From positions 682,001-746,000 of the forward strand of contig JAIQGG010000001.1 in NCBI GenBank assembly GCA_020072785.1: a stretch of DNA of 64,000 bases, in the 5' to 3' direction. The stretch comes from Terriglobia bacterium. GTDB taxonomy: Bacteria > Acidobacteriota > Terriglobia > Acidiferrales > UBA7541. Of the stretch, positions 27,769 through 61,691 are shown in pieces (the stretch's first letter is position 1; each line of letters begins with the position of its first letter). The translations under genes were made by a program, and so were the position numbers. The notes below the pieces were generated by a model. That model ran no database searches, was not told the DNA's origin, and saw only the letters and a program-made list of their open reading frames with translations.

Positions 27769-28845
27769 ATGCCTACGGAACCCACAACTAGAAGCTGCAG
27801 GGCGGAGCCGATCAGCCAGATCCCTCCGGATGAGGTCCTTTTTGGCTGTTCGGCGGCGATGGCCGAAGTACGGCAGCGCGCCGAAAAGATCTGCAATACC
27901 AATATCCCCGTGCTGCTCAATGGCGATGGCGGGACGGGCAAGGAAGCGCTGGCGCGGTGGATTCACGCGCGCTCTTCCTACCGCAACGGTCAGTTCATCA
28001 AGGTCAACTGCGCGGCCATCCCCGGAACGCTGCTCGAGAGCGAGCTTTTCGGTTACGAGCGGGGCGCGTTCACCGGGGCGCAGGTCAGCAAGTGCGGGCG
28101 CGTAGAACTGGCGCATAACGGCACGCTATTTCTGGATGAGATCGCAGACCTGGATCTGAGTCTGCAAGGCAAGCTTCTGCATTTTCTCCAGGACGGCAGG
28201 TTCACGCGAATCGGCGACAACGAAGAGAGAACCGTAGAGACGCGCATCTTGTGCGCGACGAACAAGGATCTGGAGCGGGAGATAGCCGCGGGCATATTCC
28301 GCGCCGATCTGTTCTACCGCATCAATGGGATGCGGTTGTGGTTGCCGCGGCTGCGCGAGCGCAAGGACGACATTCCGGCGCTTGCGAATTATCTCCGCGC
28401 ATTTTACGAGAAACAGTTCGCCAAAGAATCCCCTCCGTTGAGTGCGGAATTTCTCGCCTATCTGCGGGAGTTGGATTGGCCGGGGAACGTGCGGGAATTG
28501 TCCAACGGAATGGCACGCTATGTCTTGATCGGTCCCGAAGAGGTGATTGCCGAAGAGCCGCCGCGCAAGCGCAGTTTGCGGATGTCCGGCGCGTCTTCCG
28601 AGGCTGCCCCTGTTCCGCTGAAGCACCTTGCGAGGGAAGCGACCCGGGAGATGGAGCGCAATATCATCCTGGAAACGCTGCAAGCCAACCGCTGGAATCG
28701 CCGGAAGACGGCGGAGGCGCTGCAAATCAGTTACCGCGCACTCATCTACAAGATCCGCGATGCCGGGTTGCTGGCGCGGAGCACGGAAGTCCTGGCGGAC
28801 GTACCCGAAAAAAAATCTCCCGCTTCGCAGTCCTCCCGCGACTAA
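27769..28845 (+). CDS. Sigma-54-dependent activator without receiver domain
   Basis: The 358-residue protein goes almost directly into the AAA+ domain after about 25 residues. It keeps the GAFTGA loop (YERGAFTGAQ), the FLDEIADLDLSLQ motif and a Fis-type helix-turn-helix (NRRKTAEALQISYRALIYKI). The Walker A is GDGGTGKE instead of the usual GESGTGKE. With no sensory domain it may be constitutively active, or controlled by its level or a partner protein. The start is taken as ATG 27769; an in-frame start at 27733 is possible. A hairpin terminator overlaps its stop codon. Confidence 0.9.
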   Translation: MPTEPTTRSCRAEPISQIPPDEVLFGCSAAMAEVRQRAEKICNTNIPVLLNGDGGTGKEALARWIHARSSYRNGQFIKVNCAAIPGTLLESELFGYERGAFTGAQVSKCGRVELAHNGTLFLDEIADLDLSLQGKLLHFLQDGRFTRIGDNEERTVETRILCATNKDLEREIAAGIFRADLFYRINGMRLWLPRLRERKDDIPALANYLRAFYEKQFAKESPPLSAEFLAYLRELDWPGNVRELSNGMARYVLIGPEEVIAEEPPRKRSLRMSGASSEAAPVPLKHLAREATREMERNIILETLQANRWNRRKTAEALQISYRALIYKIRDAGLLARSTEVLADVPEKKSPASQSSRD

Positions 28846-37273: not shown

Positions 37274-37309
37274 ACGGGACATGCAGGGGAGCAGTTCTTT
37301 GAGGAAACG

Positions 37310-40808: not shown

Positions 40809-40986
40809 CTCCCCAGGAATCTGTTTACAACAATCGGGCAGGTGTTTTCTCTAGTTTCCGGATATGTCTAAAAGTCGAGGCTAGCAGCCATTTTCTTAGT
40901 TGACCATTGTTGCTGTAATGCAATGTAAATAAAAGACTTAACCATGGACATGAAAATTGTTCAAAATTGGGACGAGTCTTTGGTTC

Positions 40987-41002
40987 TGGCAGATGAATTG
41001 CC
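40987..41002 (+). promoter_or_regulatory. Candidate sigma-54 promoter of the EPS assembly operon
   Basis: TGGCAGATGAATTGCC matches TGGCA and TTGC of the -24/-12 consensus (nine of eleven fixed bases), with GG and GC ten bases apart. The predicted start is about 41013. The transcript would carry the ops-like element at about +30 to +40 and then the NusG-paralog gene. Confidence 0.58.
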
Positions 41003-41041
41003 CCGTTCTATCTGCAACAGGCTGTCGACTGGGACTTTTAT

Positions 41042-41052
41042 GGCGGTAGCCT
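41042..41052 (+). promoter_or_regulatory. ops-like element (RfaH/NusG-paralog recruitment site)
   Basis: GGCGGTAGCCT fits the ops pattern GGCGGTAGCNT known from RfaH-controlled polysaccharide operons, including the small GC-GGTA-GC hairpin. It lies in non-coding AT-rich DNA, in the sense strand, 46 bases before the NusG-paralog start. It is the only full match I saw in the window. Confidence 0.5.
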
Positions 41053-41098
41053 ATCAAGAGCAATTAGGTCCATTGCAGTGCATTCCTGGAGAGGCCCC

Positions 41099-41695
41099 TT
41101 GAACGGACTCGCAGTGCACCCAGAACCAAAAGTAGTGAGGTTTCCTTGGTTTGCCTTGCAAGTGCGCTCGCGGAAGGAAGACTGGGTCGCCTCCCAGCTG
41201 GCAGGGCAAGGCTTCGAGTGTTTTCTCCCGAAATACAAGACAATTCGGCGGTGGTCCGATCGTATGAAGGAGCTGGAGCAGCCACTCTTCCCGGGCTACC
41301 TGTTTTGCCGGTTCGATTATCAGAATCGCCGGCCCCTCGTGATGACACCTGGCGTGATGCAAGTCATCGGCGTTGGTCGCACCCCAATACCGATCGAAGA
41401 GCGGGAAATAGAGGCGATTCAGCTGGCCGTTTCTTCCGGTTTGCCAAGCCAGCCCTGGCCGTACCTCGAAGTCGGTGAACGAGTGCGGGTCAATTACGGG
41501 AACCTCGATGGCCTGGAAGGTATCCTGGTCAACTTTAAGGGCAATCATCGGGTCGTTCTTTCGGTAACCCTGCTTCAGCGTTCGGTTGCCATGGAAGTCG
41601 ATCTCAGCTGGATTACTGCGGTGCAAGAACAGCGGAGTGCGCAGGCAGCAAGACATGCAGTGCGCCCGGCGGTCAGTGTCCCCGTCGCGGGCTGA
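41099..41695 (+). CDS. NusG-paralog transcription antiterminator (UpxY/RfaH type)
   Basis: About 198 residues. The NGN domain starts WFALQVRSRKEDWVASQL and includes FLPKYKTIRRWSDRMKELE, PLFPGYLFCRFD and VMTPGVMQVIGVG. A KOW domain follows (VGERVRVNYGNLDGLEGILV). Specialised NusG relatives of this kind ride on RNA polymerase and stop premature termination in polysaccharide operons. The TTG at 41099 is preferred, with GGAGAGG five bases upstream; GTG at 41078 is an alternative. As first gene of the EPS row, with an ops-like site just upstream, it probably controls its own operon. Confidence 0.87.
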   Translation: MNGLAVHPEPKVVRFPWFALQVRSRKEDWVASQLAGQGFECFLPKYKTIRRWSDRMKELEQPLFPGYLFCRFDYQNRRPLVMTPGVMQVIGVGRTPIPIEEREIEAIQLAVSSGLPSQPWPYLEVGERVRVNYGNLDGLEGILVNFKGNHRVVLSVTLLQRSVAMEVDLSWITAVQEQRSAQAARHAVRPAVSVPVAG

Positions 41696-41734: not shown

Positions 41735-42913
41735 ATGAGCCCACTGAACACCGATCTACGAAAAGAAGAGCGACGGGAGAAACGGAGAATCACCACGCAC
41801 GTGCCAGTCCGGAACGCACGTCGTGTGCCGGCGCGGGTGTTGCTGGCGGAGGAGCCGTTTGTCTCTATGCTCTACCTCGAACGGCGGCGCGCAGAACGGG
41901 CCCCAAAACGCTTCGTCCTGATGTTGATGGACGTGAAGCAGGTTCTTGCAGATCATCAGAAAAAATCCACGATCGCCAACATCAGCGCCGCGTTGATGGA
42001 ATCGATTCGCGAAACCGATATCATCGGCTGGTACCTTGAAGATCATCTGATTGGCGTAATTGGGACGGAGATAGGAGAAACCACTCCGAAGATGGTCCAG
42101 ACACGGATGCTGGACAAAGTACGCCAGGCATTGCACAAGTCACTAGGCGCGGACAAGACCCGGCTGATCCCCTTCTCCTTCCACTTTTTTCCGGAGGAAA
42201 ACGACGAAAACAATACGGATCATTCCGCCAACATCACACTGTATCCGGATCTTTCCCGGCAGGATGCATCGAGAAAATTTGCGTTGAGCGTCAAGCGCGT
42301 CATGGACGTCGCCGGCAGTGCGGCCGCTCTTGTGATCCTGTCCCCCATCTATGCAGCGATTGCCCTGGCGATCAAGATGAATTCAAAGGGGCCTGTGCTT
42401 TTCCGGCAGGAGAGACTCGGGCAGTACGGCAAGCCATTCACGGTTTTGAAGTTCCGTTCGATGCGCACCGACTGTGACCCCCGAATTCACCAGGAGTACG
42501 TGAATCAATTCATCGCGGGGCAGGTGGAGGGAAAAGCGAGCGATGGCAGCGCGCCAGTATTCAAGATTCAAAAAGATCCGCGCGTGACACCCATTGGGCG
42601 CTTCCTGCGCAAGACCAGCCTGGACGAATTGCCGCAGTTCTGGAATGTGCTGCGCGGGGACATGTCCCTGGTGGGGCCGCGCCCCCCGATCGCCTACGAA
42701 TTCAAGGTTTACGACGTGTGGCATCGCCGCCGCGTCTTGGAGATCAAGCCGGGAATCACTGGCCTCTGGCAGGTGCATGGCCGGAGCAGGACGCGTTTTG
42801 ACGACATGGTGCGGCTGGATCTGAAGTATGCGCGCGTATGGTCCATCTGGCTGGACCTCAAGATTCTCGTGCAAACGCCGGCTGCGGTATTCAACGGTGA
42901 AGGCGCTCATTAG
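41735..42913 (+). CDS. Initiating sugar-phosphate transferase with degenerate GGDEF-like N-terminal domain
   Basis: The 392-residue protein has a C-terminal bacterial sugar transferase domain (from about residue 188). It has one membrane-entering helix ([20 protein letters not shown]), [31 protein letters not shown] and [10 protein letters not shown]. It would load the first sugar onto undecaprenyl phosphate. Residues ~40-155 resemble a cyclase-type GGDEF fold ([10 protein letters not shown] ... [20 protein letters not shown]), with the signature replaced by YLEDHL, so no catalysis is expected. The usual multi-helix N-terminus of WcaJ/WbaP-type enzymes is missing. It starts 39 bases after the antiterminator gene. 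Confidence 0.88.
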
Positions 42914-43126: not shown

Positions 43127-44131
43127 ATGATCCGAGTTGGCATAATCGGTTACGGGTATTGGGGTCCGAACATCGTCAGGAATTTTCATGCCCATGATTC
43201 CTCCGAAGTCGTGATGGTCTGCGACAAAAGCACAAAATGCCGGGAACGGCTGGAGAAGACCTATCCTTTGATACCGTTCACAACGGACGAGAACGAAATT
43301 CTGAAATCACGGAATGTCGACGTGGTCGCCGTGGTGACGCCCGTCTGGACGCACTTCGAACTGGCCAAAAAGGCCCTGGAGAACGGCAAGCATGTCTTTG
43401 TCGAGAAGCCTTTCACCAGCAGTGTGGCCCAGGCAGAAGAACTGATCGAGCTTGCGGACCGCAAGAATCTGAAGATCATGGTGGATCACACCTTTCTGTT
43501 TACGGGCGCAGTCAAGAAGATCCGGCAGCTGGTGGACGAGAAAGCGCTCGGAGATCTCTATTACTATGACTCGCTGCGTGTGAACTTGGGCCTGTTTCAA
43601 CATGACGTGAACGTCATTTGGGATCTTGCGCCGCATGACCTCTCCATCATGGACTACGTGATTCGCGAGAAGCCCGAAGCCGTGGTCGCTACCGGGGAGA
43701 AGCATTTGAACGGCGTGGAGGACGTGGCGTTCATCACGGTCTACTTCCCGAAGCGCATCATCGCGCACGTGAACGTCAACTGGCTCTCCCCCGTAAAGGT
43801 CCGCACCACGCTGATCGGCGGAGAAAAGAAAATGCTCGTGTGGAACGATCTCGAGGCCGACGAAAAAATCAAGCTTTACGACAAGGGCGTAAGTATGTCC
43901 ACGAACCCGAGTAACCTGCACCAACTCCTGGTGAGCTACCGTTCCGGAGATATGTGGGCGCCGCAAGTGGAGCAGATTGAAGCGCTGCGTGCGGAAACTG
44001 CGTACTTCCTGGAATGCATCGAGAAGAGCAAGACACCGTTCAACGACGGGGCAGCCGGACTGCGCGTCGTGCGAATTCTGGAAGCCGCGGACAAGTCGGT
44101 GCGCAAGCGCGGCGAGGCGGTGTCCCTGTGA
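43127..44131 (+). CDS. Gfo/Idh/MocA-family sugar dehydrogenase (WbpB-like)
   Basis: A 334-residue NAD-dependent oxidoreductase with the nucleotide site VGIIGYGYWGPNIVRNF and the catalytic-type EKPF (VFVEKPFTSSV). Together with the next two genes it matches the WbpB-WbpD-WbpE set. That set turns UDP-GlcNAc-uronic acid into UDP-2,3-diacetamido-glucuronic acid; WbpB oxidises C3. The start at 43127 has AAGGAG in front. The stop overlaps the next start (GTGA). Confidence 0.88.
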   Translation: MIRVGIIGYGYWGPNIVRNFHAHDSSEVVMVCDKSTKCRERLEKTYPLIPFTTDENEILKSRNVDVVAVVTPVWTHFELAKKALENGKHVFVEKPFTSSVAQAEELIELADRKNLKIMVDHTFLFTGAVKKIRQLVDEKALGDLYYYDSLRVNLGLFQHDVNVIWDLAPHDLSIMDYVIREKPEAVVATGEKHLNGVEDVAFITVYFPKRIIAHVNVNWLSPVKVRTTLIGGEKKMLVWNDLEADEKIKLYDKGVSMSTNPSNLHQLLVSYRSGDMWAPQVEQIEALRAETAYFLECIEKSKTPFNDGAAGLRVVRILEAADKSVRKRGEAVSL

Positions 44132-44625
44132 ATGAATTCGTCTGCATTGCTCCCGACGTCAAGCTCGGCAAGGGCGTCAAGCTGTCCAAGTTTATTAATC
44201 TGTACGGGTGCGAAATCGGCGACGATACAAAGATTGGGGCCTTTGTCGAGGTCCAGAAGAACGCGCGCGTCGGCCGCCGCTGCAAGATCTCCAGCCACAC
44301 CTTCATCTGCGAGGGAGTGGACATTGAAGACAACGTGTTCATCGGCCACAGCGTGGTGTTCATCAATGACTCCTATCCCCGTGCCACCACGGCCGACGGC
44401 GGGCTTCAGACGGAAGCCGACTGGAAGGTCGAGAAGACAGTCGTGAAGAAGGGGGCATCGATCGGCTCCGGCTCGACCATCCTGAGCAACGTGACCATCG
44501 GGGAAAACGCGATCGTCGGAGCGGGCAGCGTAGTAACGAAAGACGTTCCGGCCAACGCGATTGTCGTCGGCAATCCGGCAAAGTTTCGGCGGTTTATTTC
44601 TGAAGAGAAGAGAGCAGCGCAATGA
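44128..44625 (+). CDS. Hexapeptide-repeat acetyltransferase (WbpD-like)
   Basis: A 165-residue left-handed beta-helix transferase with repeats such as VKLGKGVKLSKF and a C-terminal AIVGAGSVVTKDVPANAIVV. WbpD-type enzymes N-acetylate the 3-amino sugar made by the partner aminotransferase. The GTG start at 44128 overlaps the preceding stop by four bases, and its own stop overlaps the next ATG (ATGA). The three genes are therefore translationally coupled. Confidence 0.88.
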   Translation: MNEFVCIAPDVKLGKGVKLSKFINLYGCEIGDDTKIGAFVEVQKNARVGRRCKISSHTFICEGVDIEDNVFIGHSVVFINDSYPRATTADGGLQTEADWKVEKTVVKKGASIGSGSTILSNVTIGENAIVGAGSVVTKDVPANAIVVGNPAKFRRFISEEKRAAQ

Positions 44626-45833
44626 CGAGCACAGCGAAAATCCCATTCCTCGATCTCATTACTCCCCATCAAGAGCTGCATGCGGAACTCCTCGGGGTTG
44701 TCGAGAAGGTGCTGAGCACGGCCGGCTTCATTGGCGGTCCGATGCTCGACGCATTTGAACGCGAGTTTGCGCTCTTTTGCGGCGCGAAACATTGCGTCGG
44801 CGTGAACAGCGGTACGGATGCGTTGCGTTTTGCCTTCCTGGCGGCGGGCATTGAGCCCGGCGGCATCATTGTCACCGTGCCGCATACGTTCATCGCCACG
44901 ACCGAGGCGATTTCGCAAGCCGGCGCGCACGTCGCCTTCGTGGATATCAGCGAGTCCACCTACACGATGGATCCGGAAAGACTGCGCGAATATCTGGAGA
45001 CGCAGTGCGAATTTGACAGCAAGCGCGGAAAGTTGAACGAGCGGGCGTCGAAACGTCCGGTTTCTGCGATTGTTCCGGTGCACCTCTACGGACAGACCGC
45101 CGACATGGATCCGATCCTGGAGCTGGCGGCGCGCTACAACCTCATCGTGGTCGAGGATGCCTGTCAGGCGCACGGTGCGGAGTATTTTTCGAAACGCGAT
45201 AACGTCTGGAAGAAAGCCGGTTCGATGGGACAGGCCGCGGCGTTCAGTTTTTATCCAGGCAAGAACCTCGGGGCCTGTGGCGAAGCGGGCGCAACCATAA
45301 CCAACGACGAAGCCATGGCGCAGCGCATGAAGATGATCCGCGACCACGGTCAGGCCAAAAAGTACTACCACGACGTGGAGGGCTATAACGGGCGTCTCGA
45401 TGCGCTGCAGGCCGGGATCCTGTCGGTGAAATTGCGCCACCTGACAAAGTGGAATGAAGCGCGCCGTGACCTGGCGCACCGTTATCACGAGCTCTTCGCG
45501 GAAGCCAAAGGCGCGGTCGTTGTGCCGCGCGAAGCGCCGTGGACCAAGGGGATTTATCACCTCTACGTCGTGCGCGTGCAGGATCGCGAAGCGCTGCAGG
45601 CCCATCTTGCCGCTGCCGGGATCGGCACCGGCATCCACTATCCGATCCCGCTGCACCTGCAAAAGGCGTATCAGCACCTCGGCTACAAGAAGGGCGACTT
45701 CCCCGTGACCGAGCGTGTTGCGGCGGAGATTGTTTCGCTCCCCATGTTCCCGCAGCTCACGGCCGACCAGCAGAGGGAAGTCGCCGGCAAGGTGACCGAA
45801 TTCGTTACGTCGAAGGTCGGCGCCTCCCACTAA
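44622..45833 (+). CDS. DegT/DnrJ/EryC1/StrS aminotransferase (WbpE-like)
   Basis: The 403-residue PLP enzyme puts an amino group on C3 of the keto sugar made by the WbpB-like protein. Family landmarks are CVGVNSGTDALRFAFLAAG, VVEDACQAHGAEY and the Schiff-base lysine in SFYPGKNLGACGEAGA. The C-terminus has GIHYPIPLHLQKAYQHLGY. It overlaps the acetyltransferase gene by four bases. A weak hairpin follows its stop (CTTGCA/TGCAAG, about 45834-45852). Confidence 0.92.
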   Translation: MTSTAKIPFLDLITPHQELHAELLGVVEKVLSTAGFIGGPMLDAFEREFALFCGAKHCVGVNSGTDALRFAFLAAGIEPGGIIVTVPHTFIATTEAISQAGAHVAFVDISESTYTMDPERLREYLETQCEFDSKRGKLNERASKRPVSAIVPVHLYGQTADMDPILELAARYNLIVVEDACQAHGAEYFSKRDNVWKKAGSMGQAAAFSFYPGKNLGACGEAGATITNDEAMAQRMKMIRDHGQAKKYYHDVEGYNGRLDALQAGILSVKLRHLTKWNEARRDLAHRYHELFAEAKGAVVVPREAPWTKGIYHLYVVRVQDREALQAHLAAAGIGTGIHYPIPLHLQKAYQHLGYKKGDFPVTERVAAEIVSLPMFPQLTADQQREVAGKVTEFVTSKVGASH

Positions 45834-45979
45834 GCTTGCAGAGCGCATGCAAGGGTTTCGGGTCTGTCTCGATATCCGTCGCGGACGATGCCCTCGGCCC
45901 GCCCGCCTAGCGCGCTCACGGGGCCGCATCACGCGGTCTGAATCGGCCAACCGCCGCAACATTTCAGGTTGAAACGTAT

Positions 45980-46864
45980 ATGCCTCGCTTAGATCGCTTG
46001 GCCACACTTTATCTCTGTCATCCGTTCATGCGACTCTTTGGACGGAATGCGGGGAGGTGCGTGCCGATTTTGATGTATCACAGCATCTCGGACAACCTTT
46101 TCGCCAAATCCCATCCGTACTATCAAATCAATACGTCGCCGAAGGTCTTTGCGCGCCAAATGAGATGGTTGAAACAGGCTGGCTATCGCACGATGGATCT
46201 GACGGAAATGCTTACCGCATTGGAAGCAGGCAAAGATCTTTCCCGGACTGTGGTTATCACGTTTGACGATGGCTACCGGGATTTCTATACAGACGGTCTT
46301 CCCGTGATGAAGCAGTGCGGTTTTACCGCAACGATTTTCCTGGCAACAGACCGGATCCAAAACACTTCGGCCCGAATAGAGGGCGCGGATTATCTGACGT
46401 GGCGCGATGTCCGAGAATTGCATGCCGAGGGCGTCCGGTTCGGCTCGCACACGGTGACTCATCCAGACCTGCGCTCGCTCGGCCCGGAGCAGATTGATTA
46501 CGAACTGGGCTATTCGAAAGAAACGATCGAACAGAAACTTGGCACCCCTGTGGATTCCTTCTCCTATCCGTCTGCTTTTCCGGAAGAAGATCGTGACTTT
46601 ACACGTTTTCTGTTTGATGCCCTGGAAAACCAGGGTTTCGAGAGCGGCGTATCAACGATCATCGGCCGCACCAGCCTCGGCAACAACCGTTTCTTTTTGC
46701 CACGCCTCCCGGTGAACTCCTGGGACGATCCGCGACTGCTCCGGGCGAAACTGGAAGGCGGTTATGACTGGCTGCATCTGCCGCAGTGGTTTGCCAAGGT
46801 CGTGTACCATAATGTTTCACTGATGCAACGTTCGAGCTGGATTGAGTCGGAAGAGGCGAAATGA
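45980..46864 (+). CDS. Polysaccharide deacetylase family protein (NodB domain)
   Basis: A 294-residue cytoplasmic-looking protein with the metal-binding aspartates in VVITFDDGYRDF and the His pair in FGSHTVTHPDLRSL. It would remove N-acetyl groups from a sugar or glycan. Deacetylases of this type are regular members of exosortase-linked EPS loci. No signal peptide is obvious. The 146-base gap before it suggests a new translation block but not clearly a new promoter. Confidence 0.88.
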   Translation: MPRLDRLATLYLCHPFMRLFGRNAGRCVPILMYHSISDNLFAKSHPYYQINTSPKVFARQMRWLKQAGYRTMDLTEMLTALEAGKDLSRTVVITFDDGYRDFYTDGLPVMKQCGFTATIFLATDRIQNTSARIEGADYLTWRDVRELHAEGVRFGSHTVTHPDLRSLGPEQIDYELGYSKETIEQKLGTPVDSFSYPSAFPEEDRDFTRFLFDALENQGFESGVSTIIGRTSLGNNRFFLPRLPVNSWDDPRLLRAKLEGGYDWLHLPQWFAKVVYHNVSLMQRSSWIESEEAK

Positions 46865-46954
46865 AGACGGGGCACGAATACTGTCGTATTGTTTGATGCC
46901 AATCCACAACGAGACCAACAAGCGTTCTTGCCTCTATACGTGAGTTGAAAGATC

Positions 46955-48049
46955 ATGAAAAAGAAAAAACAAACACCATCACCTGATGCCGGCAAAGTCT
47001 GGATTGATCTGGAGAATTCGCCTCACGTACCGTTTTTTGCGCCCATCATCGACGAATTGGAGAAGCGCGGCTACTCGGTTTTAGTGACTGGGCGCGACTG
47101 TTTCCAGGTTGCTGATTTGACTAAGCTTTTTAACATCGATTGCAAACTCGTGGGACATCACAGCGGCAAGAACAAGATCGCCAAGTTGCTGGGGCTCTGC
47201 CAGCGATCCCTCCAACTAGATCTGGCTGTGCTGGGGAAAAAGCCCAGGCTGGCTTTGTCTCACGGTTCCCGGTCCCACTTGCTTGCTTCTGCGATCCTGG
47301 GTATCCCCCACTTGATGCTATTTGACTACGAGCACGCCAAGCCGATGCCCTTGGTACAGCCAGATTGGGCAATGGTTCCCGAAGTGATCTCGACCGAGGC
47401 CGTACCATTTAATGCAGACCGTGTTCTCAAATACCCTGGGATCAAAGAGGACGTCTATGTTCCCCGATTCAAACCCGATCCGAGTCTTCGAGCCCACTTG
47501 GAAATCAAGGCTGAAGATTTGCTGGTCACCATCCGGCCGCCCGCCAATGAGGCTCATTACCACAACCCGCAGAGCGACGAACTCTATCATGCCGTGATCG
47601 ACTTTCTGGGGGCGAAACCCAATACCAAAGTTGTGCTTCTGCCTCGAAATGACAAGCAGGCGGTTGCAGCGCGAAATAGGTGGCCCGGGCTGTTCGCTGC
47701 CGGGAAGGTCCAAATCCCGAATGAGGTTTTGGATGGCTTGAATCTGATCTGGCATTCGGATCTTGTGATCAGCGGCGGCGGGACGATGAATCGCGAGGCG
47801 GCTGCCCTGGGAGTCCCGGTCTATAGCATTTTTCGCGGTAAGACAGGAGCCGTGGATCGCTACCTCTCCGAGAACGGCCGTATGGTCCTTCTCGAAAGCG
47901 TGGAGGATGTGCGGACCAAAATTGTCTTGGCTCGCCGGTCCCTTCCCAAATCCAAGACGGCAAGTTCCGAGACATTGGAATTCATCGTGAACACTGTGGT
48001 TTCGCTCATGGAGTCGCCGCACCGGCGTCCATCGCCCAGAATTCAATAA
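46955..48049 (+). CDS. DUF354 family protein, copy 1
   Basis: The 364-residue protein belongs to DUF354, a GT-B-like fold related to the epimerase/MurG group. Motifs: VWIDLENSPHVPFFAPII at the start, LLVTIRPPANEAHYHNP in the middle, and SDLVISGGGTMNREAAALG near the C-terminus, like the nucleotide-sugar site of MurG and WecB. The activity is unknown; a glycosyltransferase or sugar-nucleotide role in EPS synthesis is likely. The next gene is a close relative. Confidence 0.82.
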   Translation: MKKKKQTPSPDAGKVWIDLENSPHVPFFAPIIDELEKRGYSVLVTGRDCFQVADLTKLFNIDCKLVGHHSGKNKIAKLLGLCQRSLQLDLAVLGKKPRLALSHGSRSHLLASAILGIPHLMLFDYEHAKPMPLVQPDWAMVPEVISTEAVPFNADRVLKYPGIKEDVYVPRFKPDPSLRAHLEIKAEDLLVTIRPPANEAHYHNPQSDELYHAVIDFLGAKPNTKVVLLPRNDKQAVAARNRWPGLFAAGKVQIPNEVLDGLNLIWHSDLVISGGGTMNREAAALGVPVYSIFRGKTGAVDRYLSENGRMVLLESVEDVRTKIVLARRSLPKSKTASSETLEFIVNTVVSLMESPHRRPSPRIQ

Positions 48050-48301
48050 CGAGCATCGGGATCCCCGGCTGCGGCAAGATAGTAGAGGCCATCGAGCGTC
48101 GCGGGGATCGCTCCCAACCATTGCGCCCGTTAGACACCGCGGTTACTCATGCCCCCATGGCTTTCTTGGTTGGAAAGAAGAGCAAAAGTCAGTGTAGGCA
48201 ATTTAGTTCTGGGAAGAGCTGAAAACATGCTACATCATATGCTAGCAGTGTTTGAGGACCACCCAGCGCCCTCTGAACCGAATTCCGATATGGAGTTTTC
48301 C

Positions 48302-49399
48302 GTGAGAGGATCAGAAGGCCACGTAAATCCAGGGACTCAAAAAAAGATCTGGATTGATCTGGATAACTCTCCTCACGTTCCTTTTTTTATTCCCATCATT
48401 GAGGAGCTTCAGAAGCGGGGTCACCAAATCCTGCTTACGGCTCGAGATTCTTATCAAGTTTGCGAGCTTCTGGAGTTTCATCATCTCGCCTGCAAAGTCA
48501 TTGGGGGTCACTGGGGCAAGAACCGGGCTTTGAAAGCGCTGGGAACCTTATTGCGCGCCGCGCTGCTCATGCCCTTGGCGATCAAAGCGAAGCCGGACCT
48601 GGCCATCTCGCTCGTGTCGCGGGGCCAGCTTTTGACATGCAGCGCCCTGGCTATCCCAACGATTGTGCTGTTTGATTATGAGTTCGTAATGAAGATGCAG
48701 TTTTTGCATCCGGATTGGATCTTTGTACCGGAAGTGATACCGGAATCGGGGGCTGGTACACCCAAAAGAGAAATCTTGCGCTACCCGGGGCTAAAAGAAG
48801 ATGTATATGTGCCGAAGTTCAAGCCGGATTCGACCATAAAAAAGCAGCTCGGAATCAACGAGACAGACTTGCTCGTTACAGTGCGCCCTCCAGCCACGGA
48901 AGCTCATTATCACAATCCAGAAAGCGAGAAGCTGATGAGTGCGGCGCTCGATTTTCTCACTCAGCTGCCCGATGTTCGCGTGGTCTTACTCCCTCGTAAC
49001 GACAGGCAGGCCATAGCATTGCGGAAAGACTGGGGCGATTGGATTGCGAAGGGCAAGATTGTCATTCCGGCGCGTGTAATGGACGGATTGAACCTGATCT
49101 GGTTTTCCGATCTGGTGATTAGCGGGGGCGGGACGATGAATCGCGAAGCGGCGGCCCTGGGCGTCCCGGTCTACAGCATCTTTCGCGGCAAAATCGGAGC
49201 CGTGGACCGGTACCTTGCCGAAAAAGGCCGTCTCGTGCTTCTGGAGCGAGTTGCGGATATCCATACCAAAATTGTCCTCGAACGGAGGGAGCAGGCTCGT
49301 TGTGATTTTTCGACAGACAGCATCGCTCTTCGCTGTATATCGGAAGCAATTATCTCGATCGCGGAGCACCAGTGCCTACCAGCGCAACGCCAAAAGTGA
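48302..49399 (+). CDS. DUF354 family protein, copy 2
   Basis: A paralog of the preceding gene with the same length and motifs (IWIDLDNSPHVPFFIPII; LLVTVRPPATEAHYHNP; SDLVISGGGTMNREAAALG). The C-terminal DNA around 49105-49200 is visibly more alike to copy 1 than the rest, hinting at recent duplication or gene conversion. The GTG at 48302 has GGAG six bases upstream; in-frame ATGs at 48290 and 48149 would lengthen the N-terminus. It overlaps the next gene's GTG by 28 bases. Confidence 0.8.
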   Translation: MRGSEGHVNPGTQKKIWIDLDNSPHVPFFIPIIEELQKRGHQILLTARDSYQVCELLEFHHLACKVIGGHWGKNRALKALGTLLRAALLMPLAIKAKPDLAISLVSRGQLLTCSALAIPTIVLFDYEFVMKMQFLHPDWIFVPEVIPESGAGTPKREILRYPGLKEDVYVPKFKPDSTIKKQLGINETDLLVTVRPPATEAHYHNPESEKLMSAALDFLTQLPDVRVVLLPRNDRQAIALRKDWGDWIAKGKIVIPARVMDGLNLIWFSDLVISGGGTMNREAAALGVPVYSIFRGKIGAVDRYLAEKGRLVLLERVADIHTKIVLERREQARCDFSTDSIALRCISEAIISIAEHQCLPAQRQK

Positions 49400-50538
49400 G
49401 TTCTTCTCAAAAACAAAATCGCTCTAAACTTCCGGGAGCCATGAATCCCGACGTCTGCGAACTGAATCGCATGGCTTTGCGGGGACTCGTCCCCATGTTC
49501 GTTGCGGAGAAGCAACTCTTTTGCCACCGCTTGATCCGCACGAGCCTGGGAATGGTGTGCGAGGGACTTTCTCCGCGATACACGATCATGACTCTTCTGG
49601 GACTCCGCGAGCTCGAGCGCACAGGTGCACGTTCTCCTTTTGACGTGCATGCGCTCTATGCATCGTTCATCCGAGACACAACGTGGGTTCATGGTGCTGG
49701 CGATTTAGGTTTGTTAATTTGGTTGACCGCGGCATGCGCTCCTGATCAGGTCGACGGTCTTTTCCGCCATTTCGACTTGGCGACGGCGCTCGATCGTTAT
49801 GGGGACGCCCGCGAAGCGAGGACGATGGAATTGGCTTGGTTCCTGGCAGGACTGTCTCATGCGGGGCTGGCATGCCCGGAAAAACTTCCAGGTCTCCGGG
49901 ATTTGGCACTCGAAGCATTTCGCCGGCTGGAAAAGAACAAAGGCAAGAGCGGTCTTTTCGGCCACCAAAGCACGACAAAGTCGGTGGCAGGATTCCTCCG
50001 AGGACATATTGGCAGCTTCGCCGATCAAATCTATCCCATCTATGCGATGTCGAAATTTGCGGTCGCGTTTCATCTGGAGGCTCCGTCGAGTTCAGCCCTT
50101 GACTGCGCAGCAGCCATTTGTGGCGCACAGGGTGAGTTGGGTCAATGGTGGTGGCTGTATGACTCTCAAACGGGCCGGGTATCGAGCCGGTTTCCTGTCT
50201 ATTCTGTTCATCAGCAGGGCATGGCACCAATGGGCCTGATCGCTGTCGAAGAAGCTACGGGTCGCAGCTTTCAAGAACCGATTTACAAGGGTCTGCGCTG
50301 GATCACCGGGGCGAATGAGCTCGGAGAGGACATGAGAGACACGTCGCAGAACTTGATCTGGAGATGCATCTATCCACGGCGAAAATACAGTAAGTATCTG
50401 AATGTTGTTCGGAGCCTTGTTCGAACGCCGAGTGACAGATCGTCAGAAGGAGAGCTCAGGATTCTGTATGAGGACCGGCCCTATGAATTGGGCTGGTTGC
50501 TCTATGCCTTCGGAAGGTTTGGAGTAGCAGGAAATTGA
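49372..50538 (+). CDS. Unrecognised EPS-locus protein, probable alpha/alpha toroid
   Basis: A 388-residue protein with no family I recognise. It is strongly helical, with regularly spaced short motifs such as HGAGDLGLLIWLTAACAP, LAWFLAGLSHAGL, GQWWWLYDSQTG and VYSVHQQGMAPMGL. The repeated helix pairs and aromatic-rich GQWWW segment recall alpha/alpha-toroid enzymes acting on glycans, but no catalytic pair can be named. GTG at 49372 overlaps the DUF354 stop; ATG 49441 is another start. Coupled translation with copy 2 suggests a shared task. Confidence 0.6.
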   Translation: MPTSATPKVSSSQKQNRSKLPGAMNPDVCELNRMALRGLVPMFVAEKQLFCHRLIRTSLGMVCEGLSPRYTIMTLLGLRELERTGARSPFDVHALYASFIRDTTWVHGAGDLGLLIWLTAACAPDQVDGLFRHFDLATALDRYGDAREARTMELAWFLAGLSHAGLACPEKLPGLRDLALEAFRRLEKNKGKSGLFGHQSTTKSVAGFLRGHIGSFADQIYPIYAMSKFAVAFHLEAPSSSALDCAAAICGAQGELGQWWWLYDSQTGRVSSRFPVYSVHQQGMAPMGLIAVEEATGRSFQEPIYKGLRWITGANELGEDMRDTSQNLIWRCIYPRRKYSKYLNVVRSLVRTPSDRSSEGELRILYEDRPYELGWLLYAFGRFGVAGN

Positions 50539-50668
50539 GTCTGAAACAGAAGCTATTTGGTCGCTCCGTCAAGTGGGACGCACGTTCGAAGTGACAGACG
50601 GGTTCCGTGAGCAAGTTTGGAAAGCAAGCCACAATCACAGGGTTTTTCGGAAGCCGGTAAACACCTCC

Positions 50669-51955
50669 ATGCAAATTAAAATTGTCACGGTTGTTGGCGC
50701 TCGGCCCAATTTCATGAAAGCCGCACCGGTCCTTCAAGCCATCCACGAGCGCAACGAGAAAAAAGGTGCGCGGGGACTAAAGATTCAGCATCTGCTTGTG
50801 CACACGGGGCAGCATTACGACGCACTGATGTCCGACCGGTTCTTCTCCGACCTGAACCTGCCCAAGCCGGACGTGTACCTTGGCGTTGGTTCCGGTTCGC
50901 AGGGATCACAAACAGCTGAGATTCTGAGGAAATTCGAGGACGTAGCAGCCCAGGAATGGCCAGACGTCGTGGTTGTCGTGGGTGACGTCAACTCAACGGT
51001 CGCCTGTGCCCTGGCGACCGCGAAGCTTCCAGTAAGCGCAAACAGACGCAGGCCCTTGATCGCCCACATCGAAGCGGGCCTCCGCTCCTTCGATCGCATG
51101 ATGCCGGAAGAAATCAATCGAATTGTGACGGATCACCTCTCCGATCTCCTTTTTGTAACGGAAAAGAGTGGATTGGTGAACCTGCGGCGGGAAGGAATCC
51201 CCAACAAGAAAATATTCTTTGTCGGCAACACAATGATCGACTCGCTTCTGGCGTTCCAAGAGCGCGCCGATGAGTCCCCCATTCTTGATTCATTCGGGTT
51301 GCGCGCGGGAACCAGCCGGAACGGCAGTCGCGGGGCGATCCAACCTTATGCCCTGCTCACCCTGCACCGCCCCTCGAACGTTGACGAAAAGGCAGCGTTC
51401 CTGAAAATCTTAAAAGGCCTTGAATATCTGTCATCCCAGTTGCCGATTATTTTTCCAGTCCATCCGCGGACCCGGAAACGCATCGAGGAATTTGGCCTTC
51501 AGCAATATTTCGAGATTTCGGAAGCCGCCGGTCTTTCACCCATAACCGCGCCGGTTGCGCCAACGGGTGCCAAGGGGATTCATCTGGCCGATCCTCTCGG
51601 ATACATCGATTTCCTTTGCGTGATGAAGCACGCCCGCCTGGTCCTCACCGATTCAGGAGGAATCCAGGAAGAAACAACCTGTCTGGGTGTTCCGTGCGTC
51701 ACCATCCGCGAGAATACGGAGCGCCCCGTGACCGTAGAACGAGGAACAAACGTTGTCGCGGGAACGTCGATTCAAGGAATCCGAAGAGCAATCCGGCAGC
51801 AGATTGGCCGCAAGATCCAGCCTCGGGTCCCGGAGAAGTGGGATGGCAAGACAGCCCAGCGCATTGTGGAAATCCTGGCTCGTGTCGCCAGTAGGCGCCA
51901 TTCCGGCGCTGCAATCGAAGAACAACACGCAGTTGTGGGTGAGGTTCGGACTTGA
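50669..51955 (+). CDS. wecB: UDP-N-acetylglucosamine 2-epimerase family (WecB/WbpI type)
   Basis: The 428-residue non-hydrolysing epimerase has KIVTVVGARPNFMKAAPVL at the start, LVHTGQHYDALMSD, HIEAGLRSFDRMMPEEINRI and LTDSGGIQEETTCLGVPCV. WecB makes UDP-ManNAc; the related WbpI converts UDP-2,3-diacetamido-glucuronate to the manno form. With WbpB/D/E-like genes in the same row, the WbpI role is attractive. Inserts near residues 33-45 and 215-225 make it somewhat longer than usual. The start at 50669 opens directly on the conserved core. Confidence 0.88.
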   Translation: MQIKIVTVVGARPNFMKAAPVLQAIHERNEKKGARGLKIQHLLVHTGQHYDALMSDRFFSDLNLPKPDVYLGVGSGSQGSQTAEILRKFEDVAAQEWPDVVVVVGDVNSTVACALATAKLPVSANRRRPLIAHIEAGLRSFDRMMPEEINRIVTDHLSDLLFVTEKSGLVNLRREGIPNKKIFFVGNTMIDSLLAFQERADESPILDSFGLRAGTSRNGSRGAIQPYALLTLHRPSNVDEKAAFLKILKGLEYLSSQLPIIFPVHPRTRKRIEEFGLQQYFEISEAAGLSPITAPVAPTGAKGIHLADPLGYIDFLCVMKHARLVLTDSGGIQEETTCLGVPCVTIRENTERPVTVERGTNVVAGTSIQGIRRAIRQQIGRKIQPRVPEKWDGKTAQRIVEILARVASRRHSGAAIEEQHAVVGEVRT

Positions 51956-52285
51956 CAAGTAAAGCGCTTACTCGGGTTCGGACAAACAAAAGGCGAAAGC
52001 CCTCGTGGAAGATTCAGAGCGTTCGTCGTTTCTGGTTTTCCCACCGGCAGGGGTCGAATTCGTTCCGCGAGGACCTGAGCAGGACAGGGTGGCTATCCTG
52101 TACTCATTCTGGTCTGGTTGCCAGTTGTCCGGCTTTCGCAAGGGCTGTTACGGTGCCCATGGGGCAGACCAATGGGAGGAACAGGCAGGCTCGCTGTCCT
52201 CAATCTGTTCTCACGACCAGTGGCGACCCAGCCGCCCGATGGAATAGCATTCGGATTGGCGGTAATCGAGGCGGGGGAGACACAA
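51956..52285. other. Spacer before the beta-helix gene
   Basis: A 330-base stretch with no credible gene. The only clear signal is a ribosome site (GGGGGAG, about 52273-52279) in front of the ATG at 52286. No promoter or terminator was assigned. Confidence 0.4.
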
Positions 52286-53920
52286 ATGCGGAATCTAGGT
52301 TTCATCGCGGTTTTCCTGGGCTTTTTCCTTTGCGCTGGCAGTGCCTCGGCGACAACGTATTACGTGGACTACGCGAGCGGAGCGGATACCAACAACGGGA
52401 CCGCGAAGAGCACGCCGTGGAAGCGTGCCCCAGGAATGGTGGGCTGTGCGAATACTTGCTCCTCTACGACCATCGTGGCGGGGGATCATATCGTCCTAAA
52501 GGGCGGTGTGGTCTGGCCCAACGCCGTTATGACCTGGGCATTCGGTAAAAGCGGCTCTGCCGGGAACTACATCGTCATCGGCGGAACGGACCAGACTTGG
52601 TATGACGCTACAGCATGTTCGGCCAAGGGCTATCCCGGATGGTGCCGCCCGGTCTTGGACGCGGGGGGATTAACAGCTGGAACCAACAACTGGATGGTAA
52701 GCGCCCCCCAGTATACCGACTGGGAAAGCATTGAGTTCGCTCGCTTTGCCAACAATGCCGCTGACGGTGCCTATGGCCACAATGGAATGTTTTATATAGG
52801 CGGAACGCCGAATGTGACCATGAATGACTTGTATTTCCACAACTGGATTCACGCTGCCGGGCAGGATGGTGGCTGGGCCATCATGGCAGATTCGCACTAC
52901 CCGTCAGGAAATGCTGGTTCCATTCTATCCAATTCCGTCTTCGACAATTCCGATAGTGCCGATGCCGGCTATATGAATTGTGGACCTGGGAACAACCAGC
53001 AATGCTCAACGGGTTCGGGTATTTGGGGCAGCATTCCTGATGTTCACAACTCCGTTTTCCGCTGGCTATCGAACGGGATCATCGGTCAAACCGAACTTTA
53101 CTACAACAATCTCGTTGAATACTTCTATTTTTCCCCGGACACGGGCACGCACTCGAACGGATTTGAAACGAACGGCAGTACATCGCTCATCTATAACAAC
53201 CTGTTCCGGCATTATCCCAACTACAGCGGATTTCCGCTGGCGACCAATCCGTGCTGCGACAGCTCCAGACCAAACGGAATCACCTACGTTTTCAACAACG
53301 TGTTTTATGATATGTCGAACTCGAATAACATTTTTGTCACGTCCCACTCTGGGACACAGAGTACGACCACGAACTATCAAAAAGTTTTCAACAATACACT
53401 GGAGTGCGGGCCAGATAGTGGTAGTCCTGGCAACACTTGCGGGAATTGTGACAACTACTATGCTGGGTGCGATTGGCAAAACAATCATTGGATTACCAGT
53501 CTCGCCACTCCTATCGTGCAGAACGGTGCTCCATCGAATTGCCTTTGGAACCAGAGCGGATGCGGGAACATCGTCCAGACGAAGGCCCAGGCGAACGCGC
53601 AAGGCTACAACTCCGGGCAGACCTATGGGTTTTCTCCGACCAGTTCGGGGAATGCCACCGTTAATGCCGGGGCCAATCTCACGAGTGCCTGCTCTGCTAC
53701 TTTCACCTACACGAACGGAACCGTGAACTTGGCCCCACTGTGCTCTGACACTGGCTATGCCTGCACCTACAGTAGCGTGACACACACGGTAAGCTGCCCG
53801 GCGAGGAAGACGAACACGAGACCTGCGGCCCCAACATTGTGGGATGTGGGAGCCTATTATATCAGTTCAATGGCAAGCGCTCCGGCGGCTCCAATAGGGC
53901 TCACAGCCTTAGTTCAATAG
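52286..53920 (+). CDS. Secreted right-handed beta-helix-like protein, cysteine-rich
   Basis: The 544-residue protein has a clear signal peptide (FIAVFLGFFLCAGSASA). It continues with TTYYVDYASGADTNNGTAKS, a start shared by many secreted parallel beta-helix proteins. Repeated Asn/Gly-rich strands (SNSVFDNS, YNNLVEYFYF, YNNLFRHYP, FNNVFYDM) fit a helix of stacked coils. About 20 cysteines, often in pairs, suggest disulfide bonds. Such folds include polysaccharide lyases and C5-epimerases, so it may trim or modify the EPS. The C-terminus has no sorting signal. Confidence 0.75.
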   Translation: MRNLGFIAVFLGFFLCAGSASATTYYVDYASGADTNNGTAKSTPWKRAPGMVGCANTCSSTTIVAGDHIVLKGGVVWPNAVMTWAFGKSGSAGNYIVIGGTDQTWYDATACSAKGYPGWCRPVLDAGGLTAGTNNWMVSAPQYTDWESIEFARFANNAADGAYGHNGMFYIGGTPNVTMNDLYFHNWIHAAGQDGGWAIMADSHYPSGNAGSILSNSVFDNSDSADAGYMNCGPGNNQQCSTGSGIWGSIPDVHNSVFRWLSNGIIGQTELYYNNLVEYFYFSPDTGTHSNGFETNGSTSLIYNNLFRHYPNYSGFPLATNPCCDSSRPNGITYVFNNVFYDMSNSNNIFVTSHSGTQSTTTNYQKVFNNTLECGPDSGSPGNTCGNCDNYYAGCDWQNNHWITSLATPIVQNGAPSNCLWNQSGCGNIVQTKAQANAQGYNSGQTYGFSPTSSGNATVNAGANLTSACSATFTYTNGTVNLAPLCSDTGYACTYSSVTHTVSCPARKTNTRPAAPTLWDVGAYYISSMASAPAAPIGLTALVQ

Positions 53921-54187
53921 GCCCAGGCGTGATCCGGCTTGTGCCCAAAAGACCTTTCAAATCGTCATTCCAGTAGTTAGTCGCTCAACGCAAGCGTCGG
54001 GTCGATGGGGGAACTAGAGTCTCCCGTGGATGAGCACGACGCGGGTAAAGCAGAATCTCAAGCGTAAATCGATTGACCTGCTTGATCCCTGCATCACTGA
54101 TTCGAGCGATCGATCCACTCCATTCATATAGTGTCCCGACTACCTTCTGGTTGCCAACGCATAGAGTGGCAGCCCACAGGAGAAGTG

Positions 54188-55363
54188 ATGGAATCAGGTG
54201 TCCATGTCAGAATTCTGAGGACCCTGGCCGAGGTTGAAGACATCCGCCAAACTTGGGAATCCTGGCCAGGCAATCGGGATTCTGACATAGATTTCTATCT
54301 GACAGTTCTACGCTCCTGTCCAGAAACTGTGCGCCCTCACATCGTCATGATCGGCCGTGGGGGCCAGCCCGATGCCATGCTCGTCGGACGGATAGACGAC
54401 AGGCAGATTGATTTCAGAGTCGGCTATCTCCATTTGAAGTCTAAGGCCCGCATCCTGTATTTTGTTTACGGCGCCTTGCGAGGAAATCCGACAGCCGAAA
54501 ACAGCGAACTATTGGTCCGCGAGGTTTGCAAATCGTTGTCTCAGGGAGAGGCAGACGTCGCATACCTCAATTTCCTCCGGACAGACTCTCATGTTTACGG
54601 GTTCGGGAGAAAAATCCCTGGAATTTTGACCCGCGACTACGTCCCCGCTACCCAACTGCACTTCAGCAGGACCATCCCGAAGAGTGCAGATGAGTTCTAT
54701 CAGAGCCTTTCGTCCAATGCCCGATGGCAAGCAAAAAGCAAGCAGAAAAAGCTTGTGAAAGCGTTTTCTGGTGCAGTAAACGTGCGCTGTTTTCGGGAGG
54801 TCGGAGAACTCGACAACCTGATTCAAGATGTAGAGCGGGTCGCGAAGAGTTCTTACCAGCGTGGTTTAGGAGTCGGGTTCGTTGACAGTCCGGAGATGCG
54901 AGAGCGGTTGCGACTGAAGGCCCACAAGGGGTGGCTCCGTGCTTATGTCCTTTATGTTGCACAACGCCCATGTGCATTCTGGATAGGAGATCTCAATGGG
55001 GAGACCTTCGGCAGCGATTATCTAGCCTACGATGCAGATCTCGCAAAGTACTCACCGGGAATGTATTTAATCCTGAAAGTAATCGAGAGCTTTTGCAGTG
55101 GCAATGAGGACCGAGTGACCGAGGTGGACTTTGCGACGGGGCATGCTCAGTACAAGGAAGTGCTGGGAAACCGGCGATGGACGGAATCTGCGGTTTATAT
55201 ATTCGCGCCATCCCTCAGGGGATTTAAATTGAACGCTTTCAAGTGCTTCACGGGCGGAATCGAGCAAGTGCTGAGGCGAACCCTGGATGAAACCGGCCTG
55301 CTGCAGATGATCAAAAAGAGGTGGCGTGACCGCCTGAGGCAGAAAACATCAGGCGAGGATTAA
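54188..55363 (+). CDS. GNAT/FemAB-type acyltransferase (CelD/BcsL-like)
   Basis: The 391-residue protein has two GNAT-like halves. The second includes SNARWQAKSKQKKLVKAFSG, VLYVAQRPCAFWIGDLNG and DYLAYDADLAKYSPGMYLIL. Relatives annotated as FemAB-like or CelD-like occur in exosortase and cellulose loci and may acylate EPS precursors. The ATG at 54188 has AGGAG upstream. A 267-base gap precedes it with no other gene. The donor and acceptor cannot be read from the sequence. Confidence 0.75.
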   Translation: MESGVHVRILRTLAEVEDIRQTWESWPGNRDSDIDFYLTVLRSCPETVRPHIVMIGRGGQPDAMLVGRIDDRQIDFRVGYLHLKSKARILYFVYGALRGNPTAENSELLVREVCKSLSQGEADVAYLNFLRTDSHVYGFGRKIPGILTRDYVPATQLHFSRTIPKSADEFYQSLSSNARWQAKSKQKKLVKAFSGAVNVRCFREVGELDNLIQDVERVAKSSYQRGLGVGFVDSPEMRERLRLKAHKGWLRAYVLYVAQRPCAFWIGDLNGETFGSDYLAYDADLAKYSPGMYLILKVIESFCSGNEDRVTEVDFATGHAQYKEVLGNRRWTESAVYIFAPSLRGFKLNAFKCFTGGIEQVLRRTLDETGLLQMIKKRWRDRLRQKTSGED

Positions 55364-55427
55364 GTGTACTGCCTTCCTGCAGAGAAGGCTGTGCTTGATG
55401 GATCGTTGCATGTACGGAGCTAAGATA

Positions 55428-56216
55428 ATGTCGACTACGATGCCAATCACGTTCGCGATCGCGGTGAATAACAGAGCGGTATTGGAGCGCAACTTCTTGG
55501 CATCCCCTTGCCTCCGCGGGACTCACCCTCATCAGATACTTATTCAAGAGGGCTTCAGCTCTGCCGCGAAGGCCTATAATGACGCGATTGACAGATCCCA
55601 TAACGACCTCATCGTATTCTGTCATCAGGATATTATTTTCCCTGAGTACTGGCTATTACAACTGGGACGCGCGCTTGATTATTTGGAGTCGGAGGACCCC
55701 CCGTGGGGAGTGTTGGGATGCTACGGCGAAACGAGCGATTATAAAGGGAGAGGACACATCTACTCCTCCGGCCGAGGTGTATTGGGAATGCCTTTTGACC
55801 GTCCCGTTCCGATTCAGACTCTCGACGAAATCGTCTTGATCTTGAGAAAATCGTCAGGTTTGAGATTCGATGAACGCTTACCCCACTTTCATCTCTACGG
55901 CGCCGACATTTGTATGGCCGCGATGAAAAAAGGAATGAAGAATTATGCGATTTCCGCCTTTTGCATACATAACACTCATCAGTATCTAGTCCTTCCCAAG
56001 GAGTTCTACGAGTGCTACAGAAGCCTCAAGCGAAGCTGGAAGAAAAACCTGCCGATCCAGACTACCTGCATTAAAGTCACTAAATTTGATCTCCCGATGT
56101 ACAAGAGAAGACTTCAAGAGGTTTATCTGCGATATATCCGTCGAAAGGAAGTCGGGGCAACCCGTGAAGATAACGTGCAGCGACTGCTGGAGGAATTTAG
56201 AACTTCGTCCAACTAG
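55428..56216 (+). CDS. Glycosyltransferase-like protein (GT-A, GT2-like)
   Basis: About 262 residues. The segment IVFCHQDIIFPEYWLLQL places a His-Gln-Asp where GT2 enzymes have their metal-binding DxD, and GLRFDERLPHFHLYGADICM fits the later acceptor motif. It is a divergent family member with no membrane segment. The ATG at 55428 has GGAG eight bases upstream; ATG 55398 is possible. It follows the GNAT gene by 64 bases. Confidence 0.72.
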   Translation: MSTTMPITFAIAVNNRAVLERNFLASPCLRGTHPHQILIQEGFSSAAKAYNDAIDRSHNDLIVFCHQDIIFPEYWLLQLGRALDYLESEDPPWGVLGCYGETSDYKGRGHIYSSGRGVLGMPFDRPVPIQTLDEIVLILRKSSGLRFDERLPHFHLYGADICMAAMKKGMKNYAISAFCIHNTHQYLVLPKEFYECYRSLKRSWKKNLPIQTTCIKVTKFDLPMYKRRLQEVYLRYIRRKEVGATREDNVQRLLEEFRTSSN

Positions 56217-56390
56217 CTTGTGCGCTATCGCTTCTGCTTGATTTTTGGCATGAGCTTCGTTTGCGCTAATCTGAAGGTCCAGACCGCAAGTGAAAAGCCT
56301 TCCCCATTAATTAGTTTGTCCGTCCCACACGCAAGGACATTCCAGGAACGGACTTCTACAGTACGATAGAAGCTGCACGCAAACTCAGAC

Positions 56391-57893: not shown

Positions 57894-57975
57894 GTTACTT
57901 CGTCGTCAATGCAAGAGAATTGCAAAGGCCGATTGGGAGGCCACTAGGCCTTGAAACTTCTTCGAGAGGGATTCA

Positions 57976-60635: not shown

Positions 60636-60824
60636 GAGGCAGGCTAGAGCGAAAAGAGATGCGGGCCGCTCGCGAAAACAGCTCTATCCTAGGCAAGCGG
60701 AGCGCAATGACTGTAATGGATCCCTGAAGGCTATAGCTCCGAAGACGGACACGGGGGTCTCGATGAGAGGTACCGAACACCGAGAGCAACCGGATTGAAG
60801 ATTTTTCAGAAGTCCAATTATCCC

Positions 60825-61691
60825 ATGGACATAAAATACGTAGTCATCACACCGGTGCGGGATGAAGAAGCTCATCTGAGATACACGATGGAGAGTATGG
60901 TTGCGCAAACCGTCCGTCCTCGAGAATGGGTGCTCGTGAATGACGGTTCGCGGGACCAGACAGGGAATATCATTGATGAATATGCGCGGCGCTATCCGTG
61001 GATTCGCGCTGTACACCGAGGGAACCGCGGTCATCGAAAGGCGGGCGGCGGGGTGGTCGAGGCATTCAACGACGGATACCACAGTTTAACTTACCCAGAT
61101 TGGGAATTCATCGTCAAGTTAGATGGGGATTTGTCCTTCGAGTCCGGTTATTTCGAAAAATGTATCGACTATTTTCAGCGGGAACCCCGGCTGGGCGTGG
61201 GGGGAGGGGCCATTTATCACATTTTTAACGGAAAACAAGTGCTGGAAGAGTGCCCCGCATTTCACGTTCGGGGTGCTACAAAAATCTACCGGAGGACCTG
61301 TTGGGAAGCCATTGGTGGGTATTGGCCAGCACCGGGATGGGACACGATCGATGAGATAAAGGCCAACATGCTTGGCTGGACTACAAGGAGCTTCCCGGAT
61401 CTGCATCTTATTCATCATCGATACACTGGGTCGGCTGACGGCCGGTGGGGTGGAATGGTTAAGAATGGGAGATCGGACTACGTTTGTGGATACCATCCGC
61501 TGTATATGCTACTAAAATGCATTTATCGCCTTACTCGCAGGCCTTACGTCATCGGCTCCATTGCGTTGCTGTATGGGTTCGTTACGGGTTACCTGAAACG
61601 GATTCCACGGGTAAATGACGCGGAACTAATCAAATATCTTCGGCGTCAACAACTCGGTCGGCTTACCGGAAGAGAGACTATTTGGAGATGA
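60825..61691 (+). CDS. Glycosyltransferase family 2
   Basis: A 288-residue GT-A enzyme with VVITPVRDEEAHLRYTMESM, VLVNDGSRDQTG and the metal site FIVKLDGDLSF. APGWDTIDEIKANMLGW fits the acceptor-side motif. A short hydrophobic stretch near residues 245-262 may touch the membrane. The ATG at 60825 is preferred over a TTG at 60795. Gap to the previous gene: 189 bases without a gene. Confidence 0.88.
   Translation: MDIKYVVITPVRDEEAHLRYTMESMVAQTVRPREWVLVNDGSRDQTGNIIDEYARRYPWIRAVHRGNRGHRKAGGGVVEAFNDGYHSLTYPDWEFIVKLDGDLSFESGYFEKCIDYFQREPRLGVGGGAIYHIFNGKQVLEECPAFHVRGATKIYRRTCWEAIGGYWPAPGWDTIDEIKANMLGWTTRSFPDLHLIHHRYTGSADGRWGGMVKNGRSDYVCGYHPLYMLLKCIYRLTRRPYVIGSIALLYGFVTGYLKRIPRVNDAELIKYLRRQQLGRLTGRETIWR

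Follow-up and report, generated by a model that had tools for sequence, protein, structure and literature searches.

An ops-like leader element conserved before a UpxY-family NusG paralog gene at the head of an acidobacterial EPS operon

How does a NusG paralog encoded within a polysaccharide operon find the operon that it is to serve? For RfaH, the elongation factor that E. coli loads onto RNA polymerase at ops, it is established that the polymerase pauses at this element and that a hairpin in the non-template strand recruits the factor (PMC5995543). For operon-encoded paralogs (UpxY, TaA) a 2020 paper gave the mode of recruitment as unknown (PMC7593976). The question is raised here by a locus in a 64,000-nucleotide stretch of the genome of a Terriglobia bacterium, hereafter the window, in which an ops-like sequence stands in front of a upxY gene.

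The upxY gene and the operon it opens

The gene upxY (41099..41695, plus strand) specifies a UpxY-family NusG paralog of 198 amino acids, and its TTG start is preceded by a Shine-Dalgarno-like GGAGAGG (41088..41094, plus strand). The original prediction had seen in it a NusG paralog of the UpxY/RfaH type, and curated cut-offs now place it in the UpxY family [114.5 bits against NF033644, cut-off 100] and not with RfaH [TIGR01955, 84.4 bits, cut-off 144.5], LoaP [NF033641, 61.6 bits, cut-off 125] or core NusG, for which it also falls below the cut-off. In the AlphaFold2 model (mean pLDDT 74) the NGN domain is confident and the C-terminal KOW part is modelled as strands at low confidence (pLDDT 45–68); the predicted fold matches those of NusG and RfaH. 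A search for UpxY relatives on plasmids gave no match.

upxY is the first gene of a polysaccharide operon. It is followed on the plus strand by a gene for a polyprenyl-phosphate sugar transferase (41735..42913; Bac_transf/EPS_sugtrans domain matches), and a family scan of the rest of the operon (43127..62945, plus strand) yielded a GFO/IDH/MocA oxidoreductase, a hexapeptide acyltransferase, a DegT aminotransferase, a polysaccharide deacetylase, a DUF354 protein, a UDP-GlcNAc 2-epimerase, a GNAT protein, a flippase and glycosyltransferases. The row had been put at more than 22 kb; its rightward course and polysaccharide content stand, but the length was slightly generous, since the genes run to 62945, about 21.8 kb inside the window. 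Upstream of the operon, at 35762–39286, lies an exosortase/XrtA-type cluster, in which a gene for an exosortase-family protein (38387–39286, minus strand) adjoins genes for an XrtA-type chain-length determinant and a tyrosine kinase (35762–38218, plus strand).

An ops-like element in the leader and its conservation

The ops-like core GGCGGTAGCCT occupies 41042..41052 on the plus strand. It carries the core GGCGGTAGC and a T at position 11 (T41052, the predicted pause position), and lies on the sense strand in the leader of a long operon. Per-position counts in relatives extend the same element to an upstream box, TGGGACTT (41030..41037, plus strand; consensus TGGGACTC). The match to the ops pattern, its coordinates and the spacing of 46 bases between GGCGGTAGCCT and upxY were all correctly predicted, provided that the gene starts at TTG 41099; with the alternative GTG start at 41078 the spacer would be only 25 bases. 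Within GGCGGTAGCCT the sequence GC-GGTA-GC can be drawn as a candidate DNA mini-hairpin, with a folding prediction for GGCGGTAGCCT of -2.4 kcal/mol. Rfam families gave no match anywhere in the window.

The pattern GGCGGTAGCNT occurs once in the window, against 0.12 occurrences expected. The bare 11-mer is nevertheless no evidence by itself, because the 3.73-Mb genome holds 8 matches to it and 16 to the reversed pattern that served as a control, that is, no enrichment; leader conservation therefore had to decide. A search of 95 genomes of the order for homologs of the window protein gave genes that were divided, by their score to that protein, into 70 close (clade 1) and 57 more distant ones (clade 2), and their leaders were compared. 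Both clades are drawn from the same genomes, and that of the window has one gene of each.

Exact GGCGGTAG is present in the leaders of 53 of the 70 clade-1 genes and of none of the 57 clade-2 genes, and a weight matrix found the full element TGGGACTCTNAT-GGCGGTAGCNT in 62 of the 70, usually at a distance of 48–116 nt from the conserved domain that follows. Of the 53 exact matches, 50 keep the T of the ops pause position. Where the loop departs from GGTA among the 62 of 70, it mostly reads GATA, GTTA or GTAA, changes that leave the GC stem intact as well as the G and A at the ends of the loop; L048 (GGTG) and L059 (GCCGTAGC) are exceptions to this rule. The mini-hairpin form GC-G(N)NA-GC stands on the sense strand in 60 of the 70 clade-1 leaders and on the antisense strand in 3. 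Elsewhere the element is scarce: a sequence-only model of the extended element (R1) recovers a single site from the genome to which the window belongs, that at 41042–41052. Eight of the 70 genes lack the element. In five clade-1 leaders (L060, L062, L064, L065 and L070) a sigma54-like TGGCA...TTGC box is present and the ops core absent, and there the core has possibly been lost or replaced.

Outside three stretches, namely the element, a promoter and an upstream block, the compared leaders have diverged, and shared ancestry alone therefore does not explain the conserved element. As judged from the aligned leaders, its conservation is far beyond chance. The original prediction had named conservation in orthologous leaders as its check, and the motif came through it, being oriented, clade-specific and placed by the predicted promoter in the early transcribed region. 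That prediction also looked outside the Proteobacteria, and the relatives are Acidobacteriota.

The promoter is a putative sigma54 (-24/-12) promoter, TGGCAGATGAATTGCC (40987..41002, plus strand), which aligned in all 14 leaders compared. In high-scoring leaders its form TGGCAN6TTGC precedes the ops core by 44–59 nt; in the window the distance is 55 nt, so that transcription is predicted to start near 41013 and the core would begin at about +30. Of the clade-1 leaders 45% have a sigma54 score of at least 11, compared with 10% after shuffling; clade 2 has none. No sigma70 promoter was found when one was looked for near upxY. The third conserved island of the leader, the block GAATCTGTTTACAACAATCGGGCAGGTGTTTTCTC (40817..40851, plus strand), may be an enhancer for a sigma54 activator. 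RpoN (rpoN) is encoded in this genome, as are numerous activators of the NtrC type. Two lie in the window: an NtrC-type (sigma54-activating) response regulator [25113..26471, plus strand, G000:C1:707113-708471; TIGR02915, 375.5 bits, below the cut-off], which is a possible activator of this promoter, and a second gene with a sigma54-activator AAA+ domain [27838..28752, plus strand, G000:C1:709838-710752; TIGR02915, 273.5 bits]. Orthology to PrsR was considered and rejected; the best PrsR-like protein scores 427.6 against a cut-off of 502.6, in a genome with many NtrC-type regulators.

A sister clade with another loop, and further possible targets

At the corresponding place in the leader, GC-GAA-GC or GC-GGA-GC is found in 53 of the 57 clade-2 genes but in only 3 of the 70 of clade 1. 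The clade-1 core GGCGGTAGC has the counterpart GGCGGAGC with the clade-2 loop. The second UpxY paralog of the window's genome belongs to clade 2; it lies outside the window (G000:C3:102963-103572, L111) and has a leader element of its own, CCCTGTAAGTGACGGG-GCGGAGC. Clade-2 leaders with GGGTTAGGTCACA (e.g. L092, L111 and L120) share one more conserved sequence, GGGTTAGGTCACAAAT, which precedes the core by about 20 nt. DNA of the GCGAAGC type forms an unusually stable mini-hairpin (for the concept, PMC10527192). Nearest-neighbour DNA folding assigns no stability to the GAA triloop.

Additional leaders came from 59 genes of other families of the phylum. In this set GGTA stands before clade-1 proteins, and loops GATA, GTGA and GAGA follow a TGGGAC-like box before proteins near the clade boundary; many distant homologs in the set have none of these loop elements. 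Four of these leaders (L213, L215, L216 and L229) carry GAGA, GTGA or GATA in a GC-GNNA-GC frame, three of the four at the clade boundary. On the protein tree (186 proteins, FastTree; 130 labelled genes counted) the two main element types switch once, against at least 35 switches for shuffled labels, with clade-1 labels that come partly from a matrix trained on these leaders, though exact-match counts agree, and with two labels (L223 and L225) picked by hand, each from two candidates.

It is about as likely as not that these loops amount to a hairpin code, in which non-template-strand DNA mini-hairpins with one GC stem but different loops (GGTA; GAA or GGA; and GATA, GTGA or GAGA at the clade boundary) would steer the UpxY clades to separate operons, within the phylum and within one cell. 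On the same reading each paralog would have evolved in step with its loop, which would prevent crosstalk.

Relatives also carry the element where no upxY lies directly behind it. There are 18 such orphan sites (E <= 0.016, a per-genome value at which one or two false ones are expected), 3 of which share a cluster with a upxY and lie downstream in it. The first genes after 17 of the sites were scanned: 13 belong to polysaccharide synthesis or saccharide export (sugar transferases, DegT aminotransferases, a GFO/IDH oxidoreductase, a UDP-GlcNAc epimerase, a polysaccharide synthesis protein, an ABC-2 exporter and an asparagine synthase), and of the other four, one encodes a different oxidoreductase and three match no Pfam family. 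As these sites stand at operons without upxY, UpxY may act in trans in the relatives. The self-controlled circuit originally proposed would fit the window's genome, with its single site at upxY, whereas relatives have extra sites. In distant families of the phylum the same element precedes clade-1 upxY in two genomes (GC 0.53 and 0.69), and low-GC genomes have related sites before an ABC-2 exporter and a polysaccharide-export region. Three low-GC sites (L194, L196 and L198) show TTGCAACTCTAACGGCGGTAGCTTATT or similar before saccharide export genes, where no adjacent UpxY relative was found. Another low-GC site (L195; ops-like, E 0.002) precedes a nitronate monooxygenase gene, which is not an obvious polysaccharide target.

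Proposed mechanism, alternatives and known systems

Sequence comparison establishes the element, its conservation, orientation and position, its clade specificity and the extra sites. From these we infer pausing, a DNA hairpin, UpxY binding, antitermination and autoregulation, and it is likely that the leader contains an acidobacterial ops element at which a pause and a non-template mini-hairpin recruit UpxY for antitermination of the EPS operon. RNA polymerase would initiate at the sigma54 promoter (about 41013), reach GGCGGTAGCCT after some 40 nt and pause there. The exposed non-template strand would fold into the mini-hairpin GC-GGTA-GC, and UpxY would read this, load onto the polymerase and displace NusG. 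The polymerase so equipped would then stay processive over the operon of about 22 kb, which starts with upxY itself, so that positive feedback would result. In the relatives the same element would load UpxY at other polysaccharide operons.

Some features of the protein count against this reading. The RfaH side chains which contact ops bases are K10, H20, R23 and R73 (PMC5995543), and at these positions the window protein has R, Q, G and P; three of the four are not retained, nor is the autoinhibition residue E48. Among clade-1 proteins the K10 position is R or K in 63 of 69 and the R73 position is P in 65 of 69, with the H20 and R23 positions variable. With the RfaH residues mostly lost UpxY must, if it is a hairpin reader, use partly different ones. 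Co-change of the RfaH contact residues with the element type was considered and dropped, as differences between clades 1 and 2 are not concentrated at these positions (p = 0.20).

The missing read-out residues might also be taken to mean that the element does no more than provide a pause (or an early-elongation checkpoint) for the polymerase, at which UpxY, made beside its target, loads without sequence recognition. Monomorphic RfaH homologs can act without ops, and those encoded beside their targets do so (PMC13015549). A generic pause, however, gives no explanation for a loop type that follows the paralog clades and switches a single time on the tree, and orphan sites stand at operons without an adjacent upxY; we regard this reading as distinctly improbable. 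Unlikely, too, is that the element acts in the nascent RNA and that UpxY binds an RNA hairpin there, as LoaP does with dfn (PMC12691694), rather than non-template DNA. In 33 of 62 clade-1 leaders the TGGGACTC box forms the 3' arm of a possible stem, in which some of the changes are paired (A-T and C-G at -10), and such stems exceed those of shuffled upstream sequence. Yet no clear RNA hairpin is seen in the window or its nearest relatives, the clade-2 hairpin visible by eye shows covariation not above shuffles, and the invariant part is the ops core, with the bases that match the RfaH DNA element.

Recurrence before several EPS operons is also what one would expect of an operator through which a conventional DNA-binding protein regulates these operons. 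The site nonetheless lies downstream of the predicted start and keeps one orientation (60 sense against 3 antisense among 70), and its sequence is that of ops and changes from one UpxY clade to the other, which leaves an operator very improbable. A chance match, to which the lack of genome enrichment of the bare 11-mer might point, has a negligible probability and is ruled out by the leader conservation, exact or in full, and by the single model site in the genome.

Among the open-licence papers searched, none was found in which UpxY or Acidobacteriota are connected with an ops element. If the proposed recruitment of UpxY at an ops element is true, ops is not a proteobacterial peculiarity bound to the residues of RfaH; the same hairpin is then read by a second family through a different set of residues and another loop by a sister clade, and natural factor–element pairs are at hand for testing antitermination specificity. 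A conserved signal together with a sister-group variant suggests how NusG-paralog factors find the right operon.

Four known systems invite comparison. Like PEP-CTERM/exosortase EPS loci under sigma54 (PrsK-PrsR), the locus has an exosortase gene adjoining and a putative sigma54 promoter with a conserved upstream block (PMC1569441). Unlike here, the motif of Haft et al. was found only in Proteobacteria (PMC1569441), and the PrsR-like protein of this genome is below the cut-off. LoaP with dfn is likewise a NusG paralog directed by a leader element, and about half of the relatives have a possible leader hairpin; LoaP, however, reads an RNA hairpin of the UNCG type, the invariant part here is the ops core, and the window protein falls short of the LoaP profile (61.6 against 125). 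With RfaH and ops of the Proteobacteria the locus shares the core GGCGGTAGC, the T at the pause position, sense orientation, the leaders of long polysaccharide operons, a NusG paralog as partner and, in some genomes, several target operons. It differs in that the partner is of the UpxY family and has lost the H20, R23 and R73 read-out and E48 autoinhibition residues, in the upstream box TGGGACTC, in a site at about +30 of a predicted sigma54 promoter, in the place of upxY inside its target operon, and in a sister clade which uses GC-G(A/G)A-GC. UpxY of the Bacteroides fragilis capsule operons is of the same family (NF033644) as the window protein, likewise encoded by the first gene of a polysaccharide operon that it probably controls and with the leader region implicated; there the recruitment element was described as unknown (PMC7593976), whereas in the acidobacterial leaders a conserved element has been identified.
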